From Dehalococcoidia bacterium (GTDB lineage: Bacteria; Chloroflexota; Dehalococcoidia; Lucifugimonadales; UBA826), in contig JAPYSB010000003.1 of NCBI GenBank assembly GCA_029936675.1, positions 217,489 to 281,488 on the forward strand: 64,000 nucleotides of DNA, read 5' to 3'. A program made the translations under genes and the position numbers. The notes beneath the pieces were generated by a model, which was not told the origin of the DNA, ran no database searches, and saw only the letters and a program-made list of their open reading frames with translations. The stretch's first letter is position 1; every line of letters begins with the position of its first letter. This document shows, in pieces, positions 27,883 through 36,135 of the stretch.

Positions 27883-28929
27883 TTATTGTAATTCTATGAA
27901 TTCATCACCGACTATTTTCATTGTGTTGGTAGCTTCCTCATGGTTTAGGTCTCCCCACTGAAAGGAAAGAAGCAAAAAATTGCACCCACTGTTACTTTTG
28001 TACTTTTCTAAATAATGAAGAACCGATTCAGCCGATCCCGCAATTATTTGTTCTTTTTCAATGGCGGTTTCAAAATTGATTGTCCATGGTAGTATCCTTT
28101 TTCCTATTTCACTTTCTACCATTATCTTAGGTCTGCGACTATTCCCACCAGGGAGCGGTTTACGGAAATTGGAGCGGTATGTGTTAAACGATTCTTTCGC
28201 TCTCAATAAAGCAGATTCATCTGTTTCTCCGATTAAGACCCGTTTGGAAACTCCCAAAAGTGGGTTTTCATCAAAATGAAACACCGTTTCAATAGATTTA
28301 TGGTCAGAGCGCGTTTTCGAATAAAGTTCATTGATTTTTGGGAGATTATCAATTGTCCCTTCCGTTATTAAATTTGCACCTATCGCTCCTGCCTTGACAG
28401 GATTTCCAGCAACCCAAACAGGAGGATGGGGCTGCTGGTAAGGGGTTATTTCCATCCAAAGGTCTTGCAGGTCATAATGTTTTCCGGTGAAGTTGACAAA
28501 TTCGCTAGTCAGACCTTGCATTATGACCTGCAAGGATTCCTGATAGATGCTGTCTGATTCGAGGGGGTTTTGTCCCCACATTGCCAGCTCGTCTCCAACC
28601 GGAGCACCTCTACCAAACCCGATGTCTAATCTTCCCTCCGTGAGGTTGTCCAATGTGCATATTTCTTCAATGACTCGGATAGGGTGATGCAGAGGAAGAA
28701 CGTACACTAACGGGCATAGTCGAATTTTTGATGTGGCCGAGGCCAAGGCACCAAGATATGCTCCTTGCACTGGGGTTGCTGTTAATGGGGAATGATGATG
28801 TTCGGCTACATGGTAGGAGTAGAACCCTAAAGTCTCGGCAGTTTTCACCAACGATATTCGTTGGTGATATTGCTCATGCAAGGGTAGAGATTTGAGGCGT
28901 TCTACGTGGTCAAAAATACCGATTTTCAA
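27883..28929 (-). CDS. LLM class flavin-dependent oxidoreductase
   Basis: A 348-residue bacterial luciferase-fold monooxygenase: FYSYHVAEHHHSPLTATPVQGAYLGALASATSKIRLCPLVYVLPLHHPIRVIEEICTLDNLTEGRLDIGFGRGAPVGDE is the N-terminal flavin and substrate region, and GSAESVLHYLEKYKSNSGCNFLLLSFQWGDL the C-terminal part. Start is the TTG at 28929 (AAGGGT upstream). It lies between an LLM F420 enzyme and the DDN-like reductase. Substrate unknown. Confidence 0.86.
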   Translation of the reverse strand: MKIGIFDHVERLKSLPLHEQYHQRISLVKTAETLGFYSYHVAEHHHSPLTATPVQGAYLGALASATSKIRLCPLVYVLPLHHPIRVIEEICTLDNLTEGRLDIGFGRGAPVGDELAMWGQNPLESDSIYQESLQVIMQGLTSEFVNFTGKHYDLQDLWMEITPYQQPHPPVWVAGNPVKAGAIGANLITEGTIDNLPKINELYSKTRSDHKSIETVFHFDENPLLGVSKRVLIGETDESALLRAKESFNTYRSNFRKPLPGGNSRRPKIMVESEIGKRILPWTINFETAIEKEQIIAGSAESVLHYLEKYKSNSGCNFLLLSFQWGDLNHEEATNTMKIVGDEFIELQ

Positions 28930-28949
28930 GAATTTTACCCTTGAATAGC

Positions 28950-29387
28950 CTAAGAAACAGGCTCAGCCAAAAAAACAGGTATTACACGGTCGGTTCTTTC
29001 TTGGTATTCCTGATATGGGGGAAATGCATCCACGGCTATGTCCCAAAGTCGAATTTTCTCTGCAGGATCAATTATCTCTCTCACCTTCATGTCATAAATA
29101 TTTGGGCCATCCTGGATTTTGACTGAGGTGTTTTCCTTTAAATTAAAGTACCAAACAGGGTGTTTAGGGGCTCCTCCTGTTGATGCGACCAATATGTAAT
29201 TCGGCCCGTCTACAGCTTTCATAAGAGGGGTTTTTCTTACAGAACCTGTTTTATTCCCAATATTTGTTACTATAATGACAGGCAGACCAGTTTCCCTGAG
29301 AGTAGTACCCTCCTTACCTCTACTTGATTCATATAATTCCACCTGTTCTCTCACCCAATCTCTTGGGCTTGGTATGTATTCACTCAT
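28950..29387 (-). CDS. Deazaflavin (F420)-dependent nitroreductase family protein
   Basis: A 145-residue DDN-family protein, paralogue of the 21163 gene. It reads PVIIVTNIGNKTGSVRKTPLMKAVDGPNYILVASTGGAPKHPVWYFNLKENTSVKIQDG, with the usual late segment PPYQEYQERTDRVIPVF. It sits directly upstream of the LLM monooxygenase (28929) and downstream of the internally deleted LLM gene. Family members transfer hydride from F420H2; substrate unknown. Confidence 0.85.
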   Translation of the reverse strand: MSEYIPSPRDWVREQVELYESSRGKEGTTLRETGLPVIIVTNIGNKTGSVRKTPLMKAVDGPNYILVASTGGAPKHPVWYFNLKENTSVKIQDGPNIYDMKVREIIDPAEKIRLWDIAVDAFPPYQEYQERTDRVIPVFLAEPVS

Positions 29388-29425
29388 TCTGTTAATTCCT
29401 TCTAAACAAGTTTTTGTTAGTATAT

Positions 29426-29848
29426 TTACCGGATTGCCAAGGCTGAAACCGCGTTCTCTTTATGATATTTCTTCACTTTATCTCTAAGCAGTGGTATTAG
29501 TTCATTGCCCCAGTATATCGCGTCTTCCACAGGATTAAATCCTCTAATCAGTAGAGTAGTACAACCTATCCTGTAATATTTCAACAAAGATTCGGCTACT
29601 TGTTCCGGAGTGCCGACAAGTGCGGTGCTGTTCCCGGTTCCTCCAGTAGCCGCGTGCATGGCCACTATAAATCCATCTGCTGCACTGGATTTATAACCGA
29701 CCCAAACTTTATCAAAGCCATTGTTTTCATGGGCCTTGGCAAAATGAATTATATGTTTACTGTTTACTCCGTTTCCAATAACACTGACTTGATTTCTACG
29801 GGAATTACCCTTTTCTGCCCCTGCCATTCCAATGATTTCTAAACTCAT
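29426..29848 (-). pseudogene. LLM class (SsuD-like) monooxygenase with large internal deletion
   Basis: The 140 residues consist of the first ~65 and last ~75 residues of an alkanesulfonate-monooxygenase-type LLM protein joined in frame. The front (MSLEIIGMAG... FDKVWVGYKSSAADGFIVAM) corresponds to the barrel start, and the back (GNSTALVGTPEQVAESLLKYY... LIRGFNPVEDAIYWGNELIP) to the family C-terminus. About 230 middle residues, most of the barrel and flavin site, are missing. Junction near 29645-29655. The reading frame and ribosome-binding site (GAGG) are intact, so a short protein may still be made, but it cannot be an active monooxygenase. Confidence 0.7.
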
Positions 29849-29863
29849 CTTTTGATCCTCATA

Positions 29864-30835
29864 TTAATCTTTCCAATCATTTCCTTGGGATATTTCATTT
29901 ACGATTTTTTCTGAGTAAACCCATAATTTTTCTGCCATTACTTGATCTTTTCCGTGTGTCGAAGCTTCCTTTATGTTGCAGTTTGAAAAATATTTTCCGT
30001 TGACCCTTTTGAGATCTGGATGAGCACTGACATATATTTGAGTGGCGGCTCCCTCGTGAACATTTTTGAAAAGCAATTTTTCTATTATGATTGATCCATA
30101 CTTGATGACAGGATTGTAATGTCGTAGCAGATTAGTCCTGATAACGCCTGGGTGGACAGCGTTGGCTGTCTGGTTAGTGGTTTGGAGCCGTTTGGCCAGT
30201 TCAATAGCGAACAAGAGATTCGCTAGTTTGGAGTGACCATAAGCTTTCTGGGGGCTGTAATGTTTGTTGCCAGAAAAATTATCGAACTGAATCCCATCGT
30301 GATAAGAAAATACTTTGTGCGCGGAGCTTGATACAACAGTTACTCGTGCTTTGTTCGTCAGAATCGGACCCAATAGGCTGACTAGCATAAAATGACCAAT
30401 ATGATTGGTCAAAAATTGTAGTTCCACACCATGTTTTTGTTGCAACTTGGGCAGTGCCATGATCCCAGCATTGCAAATTATAGAATCTATCTGAGTGCCT
30501 GATCTAACCAAATCTTCAGCGGATTGGGTAATCGAACTAGGTTCTGAAAGGTCGCACTCTAGAGGGATGAACTGCTCATTTGCGACTGACCTTACTGAGT
30601 TAGCTTTCTCAATTGTTCTAGCCATTCCAATGACGGTAGCTCCCCTGAGAGACAGAACTCTTACTGTTTCCAACCCTAGGCCAGAATTGGCTCCAGTGAC
30701 CACGATTGTTTTGTTTTTGAGGTCGAGTGACTTCGTTGCTTCTTCTCCAGTTGTGTGAAATCCCAAACCGTTGGCTCCAACCTTGCTGAAACGATCCATA
30801 AAGGGAATTCGTGAGCTAGCCAATGTTTCTAACAA
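29864..30835 (-). CDS. SDR family oxidoreductase (retinol dehydrogenase-like)
   Basis: A 323-residue short-chain dehydrogenase of the WWOX/retinol-dehydrogenase type: TGANSGLGLETVRVLSLRGATVIGMAR (cofactor motif), SIICNAGIMALP, catalytic VSSSAHKV and YGHSKLANLLFAIELAKRL (Tyr and Lys) and AVHPGVIRTNLL. NADP(H) is likely because of the Arg after the second strand. About 35 extra N-terminal residues precede the fold; the true start could also be the ATG at residue 13. It precedes the deleted LLM gene by 15 bases. Substrate unknown. Confidence 0.85.
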   Translation of the reverse strand: MLETLASSRIPFMDRFSKVGANGLGFHTTGEEATKSLDLKNKTIVVTGANSGLGLETVRVLSLRGATVIGMARTIEKANSVRSVANEQFIPLECDLSEPSSITQSAEDLVRSGTQIDSIICNAGIMALPKLQQKHGVELQFLTNHIGHFMLVSLLGPILTNKARVTVVSSSAHKVFSYHDGIQFDNFSGNKHYSPQKAYGHSKLANLLFAIELAKRLQTTNQTANAVHPGVIRTNLLRHYNPVIKYGSIIIEKLLFKNVHEGAATQIYVSAHPDLKRVNGKYFSNCNIKEASTHGKDQVMAEKLWVYSEKIVNEISQGNDWKD

Positions 30836-30868
30836 TTATTGGTCTCTGTTGCATGCTCTAATTGAGTT

Positions 30869-31360
30869 TTAATATTCATACACTGCACACTTCTCGCAAA
30901 TTTGTTCCGGAATAAGGCCTACTGAAATTAGAAATTTGAAGACCTTACATCCGAAGCAGTAACCCATTACGGCCTCCAGAAATGCAAATGCACTCAGAAT
31001 GGATAGTAAAACTATACTCATAACGTTTAGACCAATTAGCCATAAGGTTAAAATTGATATGGAAAATACCAACCCAATACTTTGGGCAAAACGCTTGGGT
31101 GGGCCCGGAACTAATTTTTCTTCAAAATTCAATTTGGGAACCAAAATCTTGGTAACGACTAAAGCCAACGGACTTACTTTTGGCCCAAATAAAACTCTGA
31201 CCAAAAATCCATAAACCATTACCGACAAGATTATCAAAACGAAGGTTACTTCCAATCTGATTAATCCAATAGATATAAGTGACATCAATAGCACACCAGA
31301 GGCAACTAGTCGTGCTGCTGGTTCATTGATCAATTCTGGGAACGAAAAAAACTTCTTCAT
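30869..31360 (-). CDS. DUF4395 family membrane protein
   Basis: A 163-residue protein with four predicted membrane helices (about residues 17-35, 38-56, 87-105, 110-128) and the C-terminal cluster YCFGCKVFKFLISVGLIP followed by EQICEKCAVY. Cysteine pairs CFGC and CEKC are typical of the family, which is often encoded with thiol or sulfur redox genes. It is directly downstream (13 bases) of the peroxiredoxin gene, so both are probably co-transcribed under the Cys-codon leader upstream. Role unproven; a membrane thiol-transfer role is a reasonable inference. Confidence 0.85.
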   Translation of the reverse strand: MKKFFSFPELINEPAARLVASGVLLMSLISIGLIRLEVTFVLIILSVMVYGFLVRVLFGPKVSPLALVVTKILVPKLNFEEKLVPGPPKRFAQSIGLVFSISILTLWLIGLNVMSIVLLSILSAFAFLEAVMGYCFGCKVFKFLISVGLIPEQICEKCAVYEY

Positions 31361-31373
31361 ATCTACCCGAGCC

Positions 31374-32027
31374 TTATAAATTAGGCTGAGGGGTGGTTCG
31401 AAGGTATTCTTTTACTATTGTGTGCCCTTTCGGAAATTTGCTAGGAATGTCTTTGGTGGCTACGGCTGGTACAACTATGCAATCTTGTCCATCTTCCCAG
31501 TCAGCAGGCGTAGCGACTTGGTAGTTGGCCGTAAGTTGAAGGGAATCTAAAACTCGCAGAATTTCGCTGAAATTTCTTCCCGTAGATGCAGGGTAGGATA
31601 TGATTAATTTTACCAATTTGTCGGGTCCAATAATGAAAACGGACCTAACTGTTAAAGTATCGTTTGCATTCGGATGGATCATCCCATAGGCATCTGCTAT
31701 CTCTTTCTTGGGATCTTCTACAAGAGGGAAGTCGACATTAGCATTCTGGGTTTCATTTACGTCTTTTATCCATTCAATATGTGATTCCAGGGGAGTCAAA
31801 TTGGCTTTTGTACCAACACTCACTACTAACACCTTCGCGCCCCTTTTAGTGAATTCTGATTTTAGGTTCGCCACCCTTCCTATTTCGGTGGTGCACACTG
31901 GGGTGAAGTCGGCTGGGTGAGACATGAATACACCCCATTGGGTGCCAAGCCACTCATGAAAAGTTATTTGACCCTGGGTTGTATTTGCTGTGAAGTTTGG
32001 GGCTTCGTCTCCAATTCTTAAACTCAT
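31374..32027 (-). CDS. Peroxiredoxin (1-Cys, Prx6 type)
   Basis: A 217-residue Prx6-type thiol peroxidase. The peroxidatic Cys is Cys45 in SHPADFTPVCTTEIG, Thr42 and the Arg in TVRSVFIIGPD complete the site, and the C-terminal arm (WEDGQDCIVVP...IVKEYLRTT) matches the dimerisation and late-Cys region of archaeal-type enzymes. It reduces hydroperoxides with electrons from thiols. The ribosome-binding site TAGGAGG is 6 bases before ATG and immediately follows the terminator stem at 32043-32070. It leads the operon with DUF4395. Confidence 0.93.
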   Translation of the reverse strand: MSLRIGDEAPNFTANTTQGQITFHEWLGTQWGVFMSHPADFTPVCTTEIGRVANLKSEFTKRGAKVLVVSVGTKANLTPLESHIEWIKDVNETQNANVDFPLVEDPKKEIADAYGMIHPNANDTLTVRSVFIIGPDKLVKLIISYPASTGRNFSEILRVLDSLQLTANYQVATPADWEDGQDCIVVPAVATKDIPSKFPKGHTIVKEYLRTTPQPNL

Positions 32028-32101
32028 TTTATCCTCCTAATGAAAAGACCCCGCTTCAGCGGGGTCTTTTACTTGATCAACTAGTCTTAATTAATCAACG
32101 A
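32028..32101 (-). promoter_or_regulatory. Attenuator region between leader ORF and peroxiredoxin
   Basis: In the 302-base gap between the peroxiredoxin start (32027) and the + strand membrane gene (32330), the minus-strand order is promoter, 21-codon leader ORF, this spacer, terminator stem, ribosome-binding site. The leader's final codons (CGGGGT, 32112-32107) can pair perfectly with ACCCCG (32065-32060) in the 5' arm of the terminator. The same codons can instead pair with CCGACC (32127-32122) just upstream. The two structures exclude each other, as in amino-acid attenuators. Nothing else recognisable occupies the gap. Confidence 0.6.
32043..32070 (-). terminator. Perfect terminator stem directly before the peroxiredoxin ribosome-binding site
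   Basis: AAAAGACCCCGC / GCGGGGTCTTTT form a perfect 12-bp stem with a four-base loop, with four T closing the minus-strand transcript. It lies 16 bases upstream of the peroxiredoxin ATG and 31 bases past the leader ORF stop. It cannot terminate a protein-coding operon from upstream, because none reads into it from the minus strand except the short leader, so an attenuator role is more likely than an ordinary operon end. Confidence 0.85.
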
Positions 32102-32167
32102 TCAATACCCCGATCCTCGTGGGTCGGTACAACAAGAACAGTTGCATGTGCATATTAAATCATTCAT
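32102..32167 (-). CDS. Cys-rich leader peptide upstream of peroxiredoxin (21 codons)
   Basis: A 21-codon ORF starting with ATG at 32167. Residues 6-13 read CTCNCSCC, five cysteines in eight codons, followed by TDPRGSGY. The last codons overlap the region that can pair with the terminator arm. No ribosome-binding site is present; the promoter candidate (32178-32207) would start transcription three to four bases before the ATG, so translation may be leaderless. The position before a terminator stem and a thiol-peroxidase operon is that of a cysteine-sensing leader peptide. The peptide may also be a small metal-binding protein. Confidence 0.6.
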   Translation of the reverse strand: MNDLICTCNCSCCTDPRGSGY

Positions 32168-32177
32168 TTCAGTGACA

Positions 32178-32207
32178 ATCGTAAAACACTTGCCAATAAG
32201 TTTTCAA
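32178..32207 (-). promoter_or_regulatory. Candidate promoter of the leader ORF-peroxiredoxin operon
   Basis: On the minus strand TTGAAA (32207-32202) and TACGAT (32183-32178) are 18 bases apart. The leader ORF ATG follows ten bases after the -10, giving a 5' leader of about three or four bases. It matches the layout at 8252-8280. Confidence 0.42.
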
Positions 32208-32329
32208 GGGTTGCAAGTCCAAAAGTTATTGGCATCGTTTATCTTTTCTTATGCTGGATGAGTGAATTAAGATGATTGTGCTTTAGAGTTAGATCTTTGA
32301 TATAGAGTTACTATTCGAGGTTTTGGATA

Positions 32330-32875
32330 ATGACCGTTTCGGCCTTAATAGTACTGGTTTTGAGGATAATTCTCCCGTTAACGATTTTTAAAAAAAGAAT
32401 TACGGGTGCGATATTATCGATGGCGTTGGACATGCTGGACGTTGTGATAGTGGACGCCTTGCAGGCGGGGTTTGGGGAGCCTGCAGTCGGATTTGGCGAA
32501 AATTATCAAATGTTCGACAAATGGCTTGATATGTATTACTTGTCGATTGAAGCCGTGGTTTGTTTGGGCTGGCCCAACCGTCTTGCAAAGGTAGCGGGAA
32601 TTTCGCTCTTTTTATTTAGATTGGCAGGGATTACTGCTTTTGAGATAACAGGCGAAGAATTCCGGAAACTTATTTTCTTCTTTCCAAATCTCTTTGAAAA
32701 CTTTTTCCTGTATTACATAATTTGTGAGCGATTTGCTCCGCGTCTCATACCGACAAAAATTAAATCATTGTTGATCGTTTTGCTAATTCTCTACCTGCCA
32801 AAATTTGCCCAAGAGTATGTTTTGCATTTTGCGGAAATAAAACCCTGGCAATGGATTAGGGCAAATATACTTTAA
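32330..32875 (+). CDS. Multi-pass membrane protein of unknown function
   Basis: A 181-residue hydrophobic protein with about five predicted helices (about residues 3-18, 27-45, 65-85, 90-105, 140-158) and charged loops (EFRKLIFFFPNLFENFF, PKFAQEYVLHFAEIKPW). GAGG lies about ten bases before the ATG. No motif or family that I can name. It is divergent from the leader-peroxiredoxin operon, so both share the 32168-32329 intergenic region, and convergent with the LLM gene ending at 32892. Confidence 0.72.
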   Translation: MTVSALIVLVLRIILPLTIFKKRITGAILSMALDMLDVVIVDALQAGFGEPAVGFGENYQMFDKWLDMYYLSIEAVVCLGWPNRLAKVAGISLFLFRLAGITAFEITGEEFRKLIFFFPNLFENFFLYYIICERFAPRLIPTKIKSLLIVLLILYLPKFAQEYVLHFAEIKPWQWIRANIL

Positions 32876-32891
32876 TATATATCATATGAGA

Positions 32892-34091
32892 CTACGGTTT
32901 AGACTTTTCGCCTTCATAGCCTTGAGTTTCCATTATTTCGGCTGAACGGTTATTAGAATTTATCTTATTCATAACGGCTTCCCGCGCTCGAGTCCAAGTT
33001 TCCCTGTTGGTTGTTACAAATTGATATGAATCTCTGTAATCATCTATCAGCCCGTTGATCTCAGGCACGACGTACCTAGCTACTAAATCCCAGCTTTTAA
33101 GCGTATTTTCCCGGTTTGCCCAGTCATGAACAAATCCTATAACGCAACCAAAACCACCCGTAATAGAAATCATTTCTTTTATTTTGGCAACTAAATCATC
33201 AGGAGTGCCTATAACCGCAGTGCTTCCTTCAGAGAACGCGACTGCGTCAACTGCATCATCTGGTGTTTTATATGTGATCCCTTCATCAGGGTTCAAAGCA
33301 GCCACACTGTATTCATTGTTGTGTTTAAATAAGCCTTCTTTAGCTTGTTCCCTTGCGTCTTCCCGGGTTTCTGCTATGTGCCAATTCATTACAATTCGCC
33401 AATTTTTTCTTTCCACTGTATTTCCATGCTCTTTTGCTGACTCCTCTGCAAAACTCCACTGTGTAGGCAAGGATCTCATGCCTGCTGGCACCATTGCTCC
33501 GATAGATAAAACTCCTGCCTGATGCTTTCCAGCGAGTGTCATACCTGATGGACTAACCATTGAGGCGACAGCAAATTCCATGTCTCTTTGAAGAGGTCGT
33601 AAATGTAGCTTTGCGTCTCTAAGCTTGAACCAATCTGATTCGTAACTGAATCTATCTTCACCGTTCAATAGTTTCCTGATTATTCCCATAGCTTCATCCT
33701 GGCGGTCTCTGAGTAGCATCGGATCCAAACCCAATGTGTGGGCATCAGATGGTAAAGCGCCAGGTCCTGAACCAAAAATCAGCCGGCCTCTGGATTGGTG
33801 ATCTAACTGTACTAATCTTTGTGCAACCATGAATGGGTGATGATACGGCAGCGATATGACTCCAGTGCCTAGTTTAATTCTCTGAGTTCTTTCAGCCGCA
33901 GCCGCGAGAAATAACTCAGGGGATGCTATTATTTCCCATCCGGTGGAGTGATGTTCGCCGCACCAGAATTCGTCATATCCAAGCTCATCTAGATGGCTCA
34001 CGAATTTGAGATCATTTTGGAGTTGTAAAGTAGGATTTTCTCTAATTGGATGATGGGGTGCTAAAAAGGCCCCAAAGCGCATATCTGACAT
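32892..34091 (-). CDS. LLM class flavin-dependent oxidoreductase (limonene-monooxygenase-like)
   Basis: A 399-residue luciferase-fold monooxygenase: RFGAFLAPHHPIRENPTLQLQNDLKFVSHLDELGYDEFWCGEHHSTGWE (N-terminal strand and loop), QRLVQLDHQSRGRLIFGSGPGALPSDAHTLG (flavin-phosphate region), GSTAVIGTPDDLVAKIKEMISITGGFGCVIGFVHDW. Length and sequence style match flavin-dependent terpene or related monooxygenases. Start ATG at 34091 has AAGG upstream. First gene after the aldolase and CoA-transferase genes on the same strand, so part of a catabolic block. Confidence 0.88.
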   Translation of the reverse strand: MSDMRFGAFLAPHHPIRENPTLQLQNDLKFVSHLDELGYDEFWCGEHHSTGWEIIASPELFLAAAAERTQRIKLGTGVISLPYHHPFMVAQRLVQLDHQSRGRLIFGSGPGALPSDAHTLGLDPMLLRDRQDEAMGIIRKLLNGEDRFSYESDWFKLRDAKLHLRPLQRDMEFAVASMVSPSGMTLAGKHQAGVLSIGAMVPAGMRSLPTQWSFAEESAKEHGNTVERKNWRIVMNWHIAETREDAREQAKEGLFKHNNEYSVAALNPDEGITYKTPDDAVDAVAFSEGSTAVIGTPDDLVAKIKEMISITGGFGCVIGFVHDWANRENTLKSWDLVARYVVPEINGLIDDYRDSYQFVTTNRETWTRAREAVMNKINSNNRSAEIMETQGYEGEKSKP

Positions 34092-34118: not shown

Positions 34119-34883
34119 TTAGGACTCTAGCTTCTTTGCTTTCGTTTTTAAGTTATTTAGACCCGATTCTATGTATCCTTGGAAGCTGCATAAAAACATA
34201 CGGCCACCAGCCAATACCCACCTTTCTATGTTGTTGTCTCCAGCAGTTGACCCAGTTGCAAAACCTGCTGCAGAAATTTTCTTCATTGAACTTTCAATTA
34301 CCGCCTCAACGTCAGGATGGCTAGGTTTCCCGAGATAATCAGGACCCATGCTTTGAGAAAGGTCACCGGGTACAACCATGAAACAGTCCACCTCATCTAC
34401 GGTCAGTATTTCGTCAAGATTTTCGACTGCAACAACATCTTCTATTAAGGCTAATAACAATATCTCATCGTTGGCTTTGGCTACATAGTCCGTAACTCCC
34501 AAGCCCTGCCGTGAAGTAAACATACCTCTACTTCCTTCAGGAGTGTATTTTCCTCCTTGAACTAGCCTTTCCGCCTCTTCTTTTGTGTTTACGTGCGGTA
34601 CCACCACGGCCTGTGCGCCTCTATCTAAAGCCCTACCAACAAGCCAAGGGTCATTGTTGTTTACTCTGACGAGCGATGTCATACCCCATAGATCGCAGGC
34701 TCTAGATATATCACTTATTTGTGACCAAGTTGCCTCCCCGTGTTCCATTTCTATCCAGATGATATCCACAGCTTCCGATGATCCTAGAAAATCAACCATA
34801 TCGGTGTCCGTGCACGACACTGCCATGACAGTTTCGCCATTTTTTAACTTTTGCTTTGCTCTATTTTTTCTTATTTCAGGCAT
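34119..34883 (-). CDS. HpcH/HpaI aldolase family protein
   Basis: A 254-residue metal-dependent aldolase: DIIWIEMEHGEATWSQISDISR (N-terminal active site), TSLVRVNNNDPWLVGRALDRGAQAVVVPHVNTKEEAERLV, LALIEDVVAVENLDEILTVDEVDCFMVVPGDLSQSMG with Glu and Asp metal ligands. It probably splits a 4-hydroxy-2-keto acid to give pyruvate. It lies between the LLM monooxygenase and CoA-transferase genes, with short gaps (27 and 40 bases), suggesting one operon. Confidence 0.88.
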   Translation of the reverse strand: MPEIRKNRAKQKLKNGETVMAVSCTDTDMVDFLGSSEAVDIIWIEMEHGEATWSQISDISRACDLWGMTSLVRVNNNDPWLVGRALDRGAQAVVVPHVNTKEEAERLVQGGKYTPEGSRGMFTSRQGLGVTDYVAKANDEILLLALIEDVVAVENLDEILTVDEVDCFMVVPGDLSQSMGPDYLGKPSHPDVEAVIESSMKKISAAGFATGSTAGDNNIERWVLAGGRMFLCSFQGYIESGLNNLKTKAKKLES

Positions 34884-34923: not shown

Positions 34924-36135
34924 TTATATAACTTCAATATCACTCAACTTTTTTATTTGGGATTCGCTATAGCCTAAAGAAGATAGAATCTCATTATTGT
35001 GTTCCCCTAATTCCGGAGCAAACCCAGGATTGCTGGGAGTTTCAGAAAAGTTCCAAGGTGATCCGTGGATTTTGATATTCTCCCCAATTTTCGGGTGAAA
35101 AATTTCTTTAACATAGCCATTCGCAACAATGTTTGGGTCGTTAGATGCCTCTAACATTGTGTTTACTGGAGCGGCGACCATGTCTGCCTCCCGCAAAATG
35201 GATACCCAGTGTTCTCGGGTATTGGTTGCGAACATTGATGAGAGAGTATCTAGAATTTCATTTTTCTTGTTTTCGGAATCAAAGGCTAATCCTAAATCGA
35301 GTAAACCTTTTTCCTCCATCGAGTCGTGGAACCCAAGGATTTCAAGAGCTGAGATCCAGTGCCGGGCGTCCAATTGAATTGCTAGAGGGTTACCATTGCT
35401 GTCGTTAAAACATGCAGCGATTCCTGCTCTGTTACGGCTGCCGTTTATTCGAGCCCCAGTAATGGGAGGCTGATTTTTCCACATTGTTGTGGCCATAGTC
35501 CAGCCCATTAACCGAAAGGCGCTGCCTACTAAGGAAGTATCTACCTTTTGGCCTTGCCCTGTTTCCCTCGCATGAATCAAGGCGGCTAAAACCCCTCCAA
35601 AAGTAAGAATTGCTGTAGTTTCATCCGCAACTGAAGCTACTCCAGTTCGCATAGGTTGCCCTGGAATAGAGAAGGCTTCCGTGATCCCCGATAGAGCTTG
35701 CCCTACCGCGTCAGTTCCTGGTAGGTTTGCGTCAGGTCCTTCTAAGCCATAAGCTGACACGGATGCATAAACCAATCGAGGATTAATTTTCCTTAATTCT
35801 TCGTATCCAAATCCGTTTCTCTCCGCAGCCCCGGGCCTAAAATTCTGTCCAAAAACATCCGCTCTCTTCACTAATTCATGTAGAATCTTTTTCCCTTCTT
35901 CTGCTTTAAGATTCAAAGTGAGACTTTTCACACCTCTATTATTGGTTTCAAAAAAGGAACTCACTCCATTCTTGATTTCGCCAGCACGTCTTGAACCATC
36001 GCCTGCTCCTGGAACTTCAATTTTTATAACTTCAGCTCCTAGATCTGCCATCAGCATATAAGGAACCGTCCCAGCCTGTGCTGTAGAACAAGTTACTACC
36101 CGTACTCCTGATAACACTCCGTGTGTGTTAGTCAT
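34924..36135 (-). CDS. CaiB/BaiF family (class III) CoA-transferase
   Basis: A 403-residue class III CoA-transferase: GVRVVTCSTAQAGTVPYMLMADLGAEVIKIEVPGAGDGSR (N-terminal CoA-binding), SLTLNLKAEEGKKIL, AERNGFGYEELRKINPRLVYASVSAYGLEGP, then TDAVGQALSGITEAF with the likely catalytic Asp. It activates an acid by CoA exchange. It lies upstream of the HpcH aldolase gene and downstream of an enolase-family enzyme, consistent with degradation of an acid that becomes a CoA ester. Substrate unknown. Confidence 0.9.
   Translation of the reverse strand: MTNTHGVLSGVRVVTCSTAQAGTVPYMLMADLGAEVIKIEVPGAGDGSRRAGEIKNGVSSFFETNNRGVKSLTLNLKAEEGKKILHELVKRADVFGQNFRPGAAERNGFGYEELRKINPRLVYASVSAYGLEGPDANLPGTDAVGQALSGITEAFSIPGQPMRTGVASVADETTAILTFGGVLAALIHARETGQGQKVDTSLVGSAFRLMGWTMATTMWKNQPPITGARINGSRNRAGIAACFNDSNGNPLAIQLDARHWISALEILGFHDSMEEKGLLDLGLAFDSENKKNEILDTLSSMFATNTREHWVSILREADMVAAPVNTMLEASNDPNIVANGYVKEIFHPKIGENIKIHGSPWNFSETPSNPGFAPELGEHNNEILSSLGYSESQIKKLSDIEVI

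Follow-up and report, generated by a model that had tools for sequence, protein, structure and literature searches.

The SAR202 group is known for its many paralogues of FMN-dependent monooxygenases (FMNOs), an expansion that passages of two studies (PMC5395668, PMC6946804) treat in terms of copy number and diversity. The word 'pseudogene' has no occurrence in the main text of either study or of PMC10444878, and among the listed titles and abstract openings on SAR202 pseudogenes or in-frame-deleted luciferase-like monooxygenases none concerns the gene described here. This gene lies in a stretch of 64 000 nucleotides (the window, meaning the whole of the DNA that was analysed) on a 291 kb contig of a 2.19 Mb draft genome of 53 contigs (G000). 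The relatives of this genome are SAR202/Dehalococcoidia, its genus sits with the SAR202 group and the host is a marine SAR202-type bacterium. In likeness to the published expansion, a profile search of the genome listed 43 places matching the luciferase-like monooxygenase family PF00296 besides our locus, none of them in a frame shorter than 278 residues. Since the same search left this locus unlisted, other short relics would also be missed by it.

The nearest named relatives are the FMNH2-dependent alkanesulfonate monooxygenases SsuD/MsuD. Their model TIGR03565 is the top-scoring NCBIfam family for the intact orthologue of our gene (221.8 bits), and SsuD/MsuD structures are among its PDB matches (7jv3, E = 1.5e-49; 1m41, E = 5.4e-45). 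The intact orthologue nevertheless falls far below the equivalog cut-off of 518.2 bits and the remnant itself scores 33.0 bits, so that the term 'SsuD-like' used in the first-pass annotation is apt for the nearest named family but only in a loose sense. The features of the locus are as follows.

29426..29848, minus strand: in-frame remnant of a luciferase-fold FMN-dependent monooxygenase gene, 140 aa (from the open reading frame, Pfam and orthologue alignment)
29651..29848, minus strand: 5' piece with barrel strands 1 and 2; its codons 1–66 correspond to residues 1–66 of the full-length 366-aa orthologue
29426..29650, minus strand: 3' piece, codons 67–140 and the stop codon; codons 67–138 correspond to orthologue residues 295–366 (barrel strand 8 and the C-terminal helices)
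29647..29658, minus strand: deletion-junction stretch of Ala codons, with an ambiguous exact breakpoint (from codon and nucleotide alignments)
28950..29387, minus strand: F420H2-dependent quinone reductase gene (PF04075), the downstream neighbour and one edge of a conserved slot
29864..30835, minus strand: short-chain dehydrogenase (SDR) gene, the upstream neighbour and the other edge of the slot

The open reading frame starts with ATG at 29848, ends at 29426 and contains no internal stop. A GAGGA motif, read directly from the sequence, stands 7 nt upstream of the ATG as a plausible ribosome-binding site, in agreement with the intact one previously reported. Residues 1–66 align with residues 1–66, and residues 67–138 with residues 295–366, of a 366-aa orthologue in a neighbouring genome of the genus (G006), both without gaps. 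Relative to this orthologue and that of a second genome (G001), the remnant lacks 228 codons (684 nt, or 62%) from the middle of the gene, and because the missing length is a whole number of codons the reading frame survives. The first-pass annotation, which had described a monooxygenase without its central two thirds, with about 65 N-terminal and 75 C-terminal residues joined in frame, was therefore accurate. Identity to the G006 protein is 80% for the 5' piece (53 of 66 residues; search E = 4e-30) and 85% for the 3' piece (61 of 72; E = 2e-38); the corresponding values for the G001 protein are 76 and 82%. The lower N-terminal value for G001 in blastp and in the genome search (62%) arises because those alignments extend beyond the junction. 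The codon alignment places the junction between 29651 and 29650 and the nucleotide alignment lets it slide over about 29647–29658, a range that overlaps the earlier estimate of 29645–29655. In nucleotide scoring against G001 a loss of 683 nt comes out slightly ahead of 684 nt (297.9 versus 297.4), whereas the gapless codon alignment gives 684.

The sole Pfam match of the remnant up to E = 1 is PF00296, which it hits in two stretches at 35.3 bits (E = 1.1e-8), above the curated cut-off of 27.9. The better stretch pairs remnant residues 64–97 with profile positions 280–313 of 314. An unrelated family of about 140 residues that resembles only the two ends of a monooxygenase, which the first-pass annotation had named as counting against its reading, was thus not found; since both pieces align gaplessly to a single orthologue of 366 aa at a syntenic position, synteny and identity refute this explanation, to which we assign a negligible probability.

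The slot is legible in five of the eight genomes of the genus (G000, G001, G003, G004 and G006), where two copies are intact and three are broken. In G006 (contig C85) and G001 (C34) the 366-aa gene stands between the same SDR and F420H2-dependent quinone reductase genes and differs from the remnant in carrying the central 228 codons. The comparison with intact homologues in neighbouring genomes that had earlier been proposed thus yields orthologues from the same position. Gene order is closely kept around it, with 12 of the 12 window genes compared found in G003 and 11 of 12 in both G006 and G001. The G003 (C111) and G004 (C1) copies are relics of the same gene that have also lost its middle, but their frames, unlike that of the remnant, are not open. 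The former lacks about 817 nt and is frameshifted, reading 44 residues to a stop with its C-terminal piece in a different frame. The latter is badly worn (tblastn E = 3e-10), with no frame longer than 41 residues on the strand of the gene within the relic. An early impression from a multiple alignment that these two relics share a breakpoint was dropped, since alternative G004 breakpoints score nearly equally and two references disagree. The matching G002 contigs stop short of the slot from both sides, leaving about 28363–32940 uncovered, and the flanking DNA of the slot gave no match in G005 and G007.

Two observations concern FMNO genes near the slot. The product of 32892–34091 is 91% identical in amino-acid sequence to its G004 counterpart and 72.6–73.6% identical to those of G003, G001 and G006; unlike this gene, its neighbours (34119–34883 and 34924–36135) are closer to G003, a pattern that looks like allele replacement by recombination. 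The neighbouring FMNO gene at 27883–28929 was not found at the matching place in G004, where a 428 bp gap (L133:6835-7262) yields nothing better than a non-significant match to it (E = 0.054); the species represented by G004 may have lost a further gene of the block in this way.

An assembly artefact, in which a full-length gene was collapsed or two paralogues were joined, would be conceivable in a draft of 53 contigs, as assemblers can be misled by short repeats. The two halves, however, are nearest to the same orthologue and not to the close paralogue of the genome itself, an intact 378-aa open frame on contig C4 that is 58% identical to the N-terminal piece and 65% to the C-terminal piece; a chimera of two paralogues is thereby ruled out. 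The contig is moreover collinear with those of relatives around the junction, and decayed copies of the gene occupy the same slot in the separate assemblies of G003 and G004, which counts against an artefact. We regard this explanation as very unlikely.

What the 140-aa product could still do was considered from its predicted structure. In L044, an intact homologue modelled with AlphaFold2 (pLDDT 85.3), strands 3–7 of the barrel lie, by our own strand assignment, in the stretch that is absent from the remnant, while strands 1, 2 and 8 are kept, so that the remnant is predicted to fall short of a complete (β/α)8 barrel. The deleted part also holds 41 of the 62 residues that are invariant among 16 aligned homologues (drawn from the best 80 of 175 confirmed relatives, after open reading frames had been listed for 24). 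With five of eight strands and most of the invariant residues gone, the product would be unable to work as an enzyme of its family, and monooxygenase activity of the family type is not expected. A reduced protein with a new role, in which selection maintains a chain of β8–β1–β2 and helices, for instance to pair with a related barrel enzyme or serve as its decoy, would fit the open frame and start site, and AlphaFold2 returns a model of the 140-aa chain with a pLDDT of 76.2 and a pTM of 0.71; these same features are what speaks against a pseudogene. The model is weak evidence of folding, as the rows of its alignment are full-length barrels, and a PDB fold search with it returned nothing at E <= 0.001, the top matches being partial and to full SfnG barrels. 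Promoter and terminator scans (nine versus 5.8 in shuffled sequences and four versus 2.5, respectively) were set aside as evidence.

The distribution of short forms also bears on such a role. Searched against 197 genomes of the order (G000 included), the 140-aa protein has matches at E <= 1e-8 in 47 of them. The only short frames among the places listed are that of G000 (145 residues) and two pieces in G003 (55 and 49 residues), the remainder being 296–454 residues long; the G004 relic falls short of this threshold. Other internally deleted in-frame copies, which the first-pass annotation had thought worth seeking, did not materialize in the other 196 genomes at E <= 1e-8. As far as these searches show, the open short form appears to be private to G000, which tells against an established small protein, as does the frameshifted copy in G003, the nearest relative with a legible slot. 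A looser search (60 genomes, E <= 1e-5) picked up short frames of distant homologues in G007 (C69:2620-2781, 165 aa) and G057 (C7:8295-8456, 115 aa); with C-terminal similarity to the superfamily, these may be relics or contig-edge fragments.

We compared substitution rates in the 93 codons common to the G000 and G003 copies, using Nei–Gojobori counts and a bootstrap. The pair gives a dS of 0.60, a dN of 0.061 and a dN/dS of 0.10 (0.04–0.21), which excludes neutrality across the whole divergence and indicates a mostly constrained history with mild relaxation. In the same codons the intact pair G001–G006 has a dN/dS of about 0.02, although its dS of 1.84 is near saturation and left 257 of 1000 bootstraps undefined. 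Eight flanking genes span 0.03–0.13 for the G000–G003 pair, and as the value for the remnant is inside this range, selection on the short form may still be in play. The low ratio is, on the other hand, no proof of present function, because one member of the pair is the frameshifted copy of G003. Parsed by lineage, 24 of the 37 differences could be placed, and these few sites give eight nonsynonymous and six synonymous changes on the G000 tip, which does not favour a constrained short protein, and four and six on the G003 tip. A branch-wise codon likelihood fit to six taxa was discarded: one ω and some of the branch lengths stuck at their limits, a tip came out at zero, and the estimates for individual tips compensated for one another. 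Depending on the model, that fit put ω for the G000 tip at 0.35 or at 0.06, and setting it to 1 cost only about one log unit, too little to discriminate (−1728.03 versus −1726.99). On these grounds taken with the structural and distributional data, a new role for the reduced protein seems to us quite unlikely.

The order of events may be read against a tree of gyrB and partial rpoB, which groups G000 with G005, then with G002, G007 and G003, pairs G001 with G006 and places G004 weakly (51). The G000 copy keeps codons that are absent from G003, and this rules out its descent from the G003 deletion; the reverse, descent of the G003 copy from the G000 type, could in principle have happened. Were the 684 nt deletion older than the split of the two lineages, the short form would have been constrained for some time, and one may then picture a selected, non-catalytic β8–β1–β2 fragment of a TIM-barrel oxygenase that was later lost in G003. 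We consider this sequence of events highly improbable. That most of the divergence accrued under constraint suggests that both lineages inactivated the gene recently and makes separate losses the favoured reading; the genus has probably lost this gene on two or three separate occasions.

The route of the deletion can be approached through the intact orthologues, in which each boundary lies within a row of Ala codons (HAAAH and IAAAT). The G001 gene has an exact 9 bp repeat, TGCAGCTGC, at both breakpoints, 681 nt apart, and no exact 9 bp match is present at the breakpoints in G006. Exact 9 bp direct repeats spaced by more than 300 nt number three in the G001 gene against a mean of 2.1 after codon shuffling and are unremarkable in themselves, though one of them coincides with the breakpoints. 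Exchange between the G001 repeats predicts a loss of 681 nt, whereas G000 has lost 684 nt; the difference of one codon implies that the ancestral register differed or that the event included a one-codon slip. Despite this discrepancy, the deletion by short homology in Ala codons proposed by the first-pass annotation is supported. Replication slippage between short direct repeats is an established deletion route in bacteria. The ancestor would have been an intact, co-directional gene for a 366-aa FMN-dependent monooxygenase of the luciferase fold, with alkanesulfonate monooxygenase as the nearest named family, and its middle 684 nt would have been lost by recombination or slippage between short direct repeats built of Ala-codon runs. 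Both runs being in the same phase, the loss would be a multiple of three and the frame would stay open.

Of the three options originally left standing, the recent pseudogene is best supported by the intact gene in G001 and G006 and its differently decayed copies in G003 and G004, the artefact is unlikely and the reduced protein is without positive support. We therefore read the locus, with a probability of roughly 0.87, as a recent in-frame pseudogene that arose by a short-repeat deletion and represents one of several separate losses in the genus; a commonplace, recent loss of the gene is the most likely account, ahead of a novel small protein. Homology, synteny, the extent and position of the deletion and the existence of intact and broken orthologues are direct observations; how the deletion arose, the loss of function, its recency and the separateness of the losses are inferred from them. 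As a pseudogene by internal deletion the remnant is a good specimen of an already known kind and is otherwise ordinary. Because it passes the Pfam gathering cut-off, an automatic annotator would score this relic as a luciferase-like monooxygenase, and dead copies can in this way enter automated FMNO tallies for SAR202 genomes. A single genus here displays the loss of a gene at several stages (intact, gutted in frame, frameshifted and worn away), which suggests that the FMNO expansion of SAR202 is also shrinking, copy by copy.
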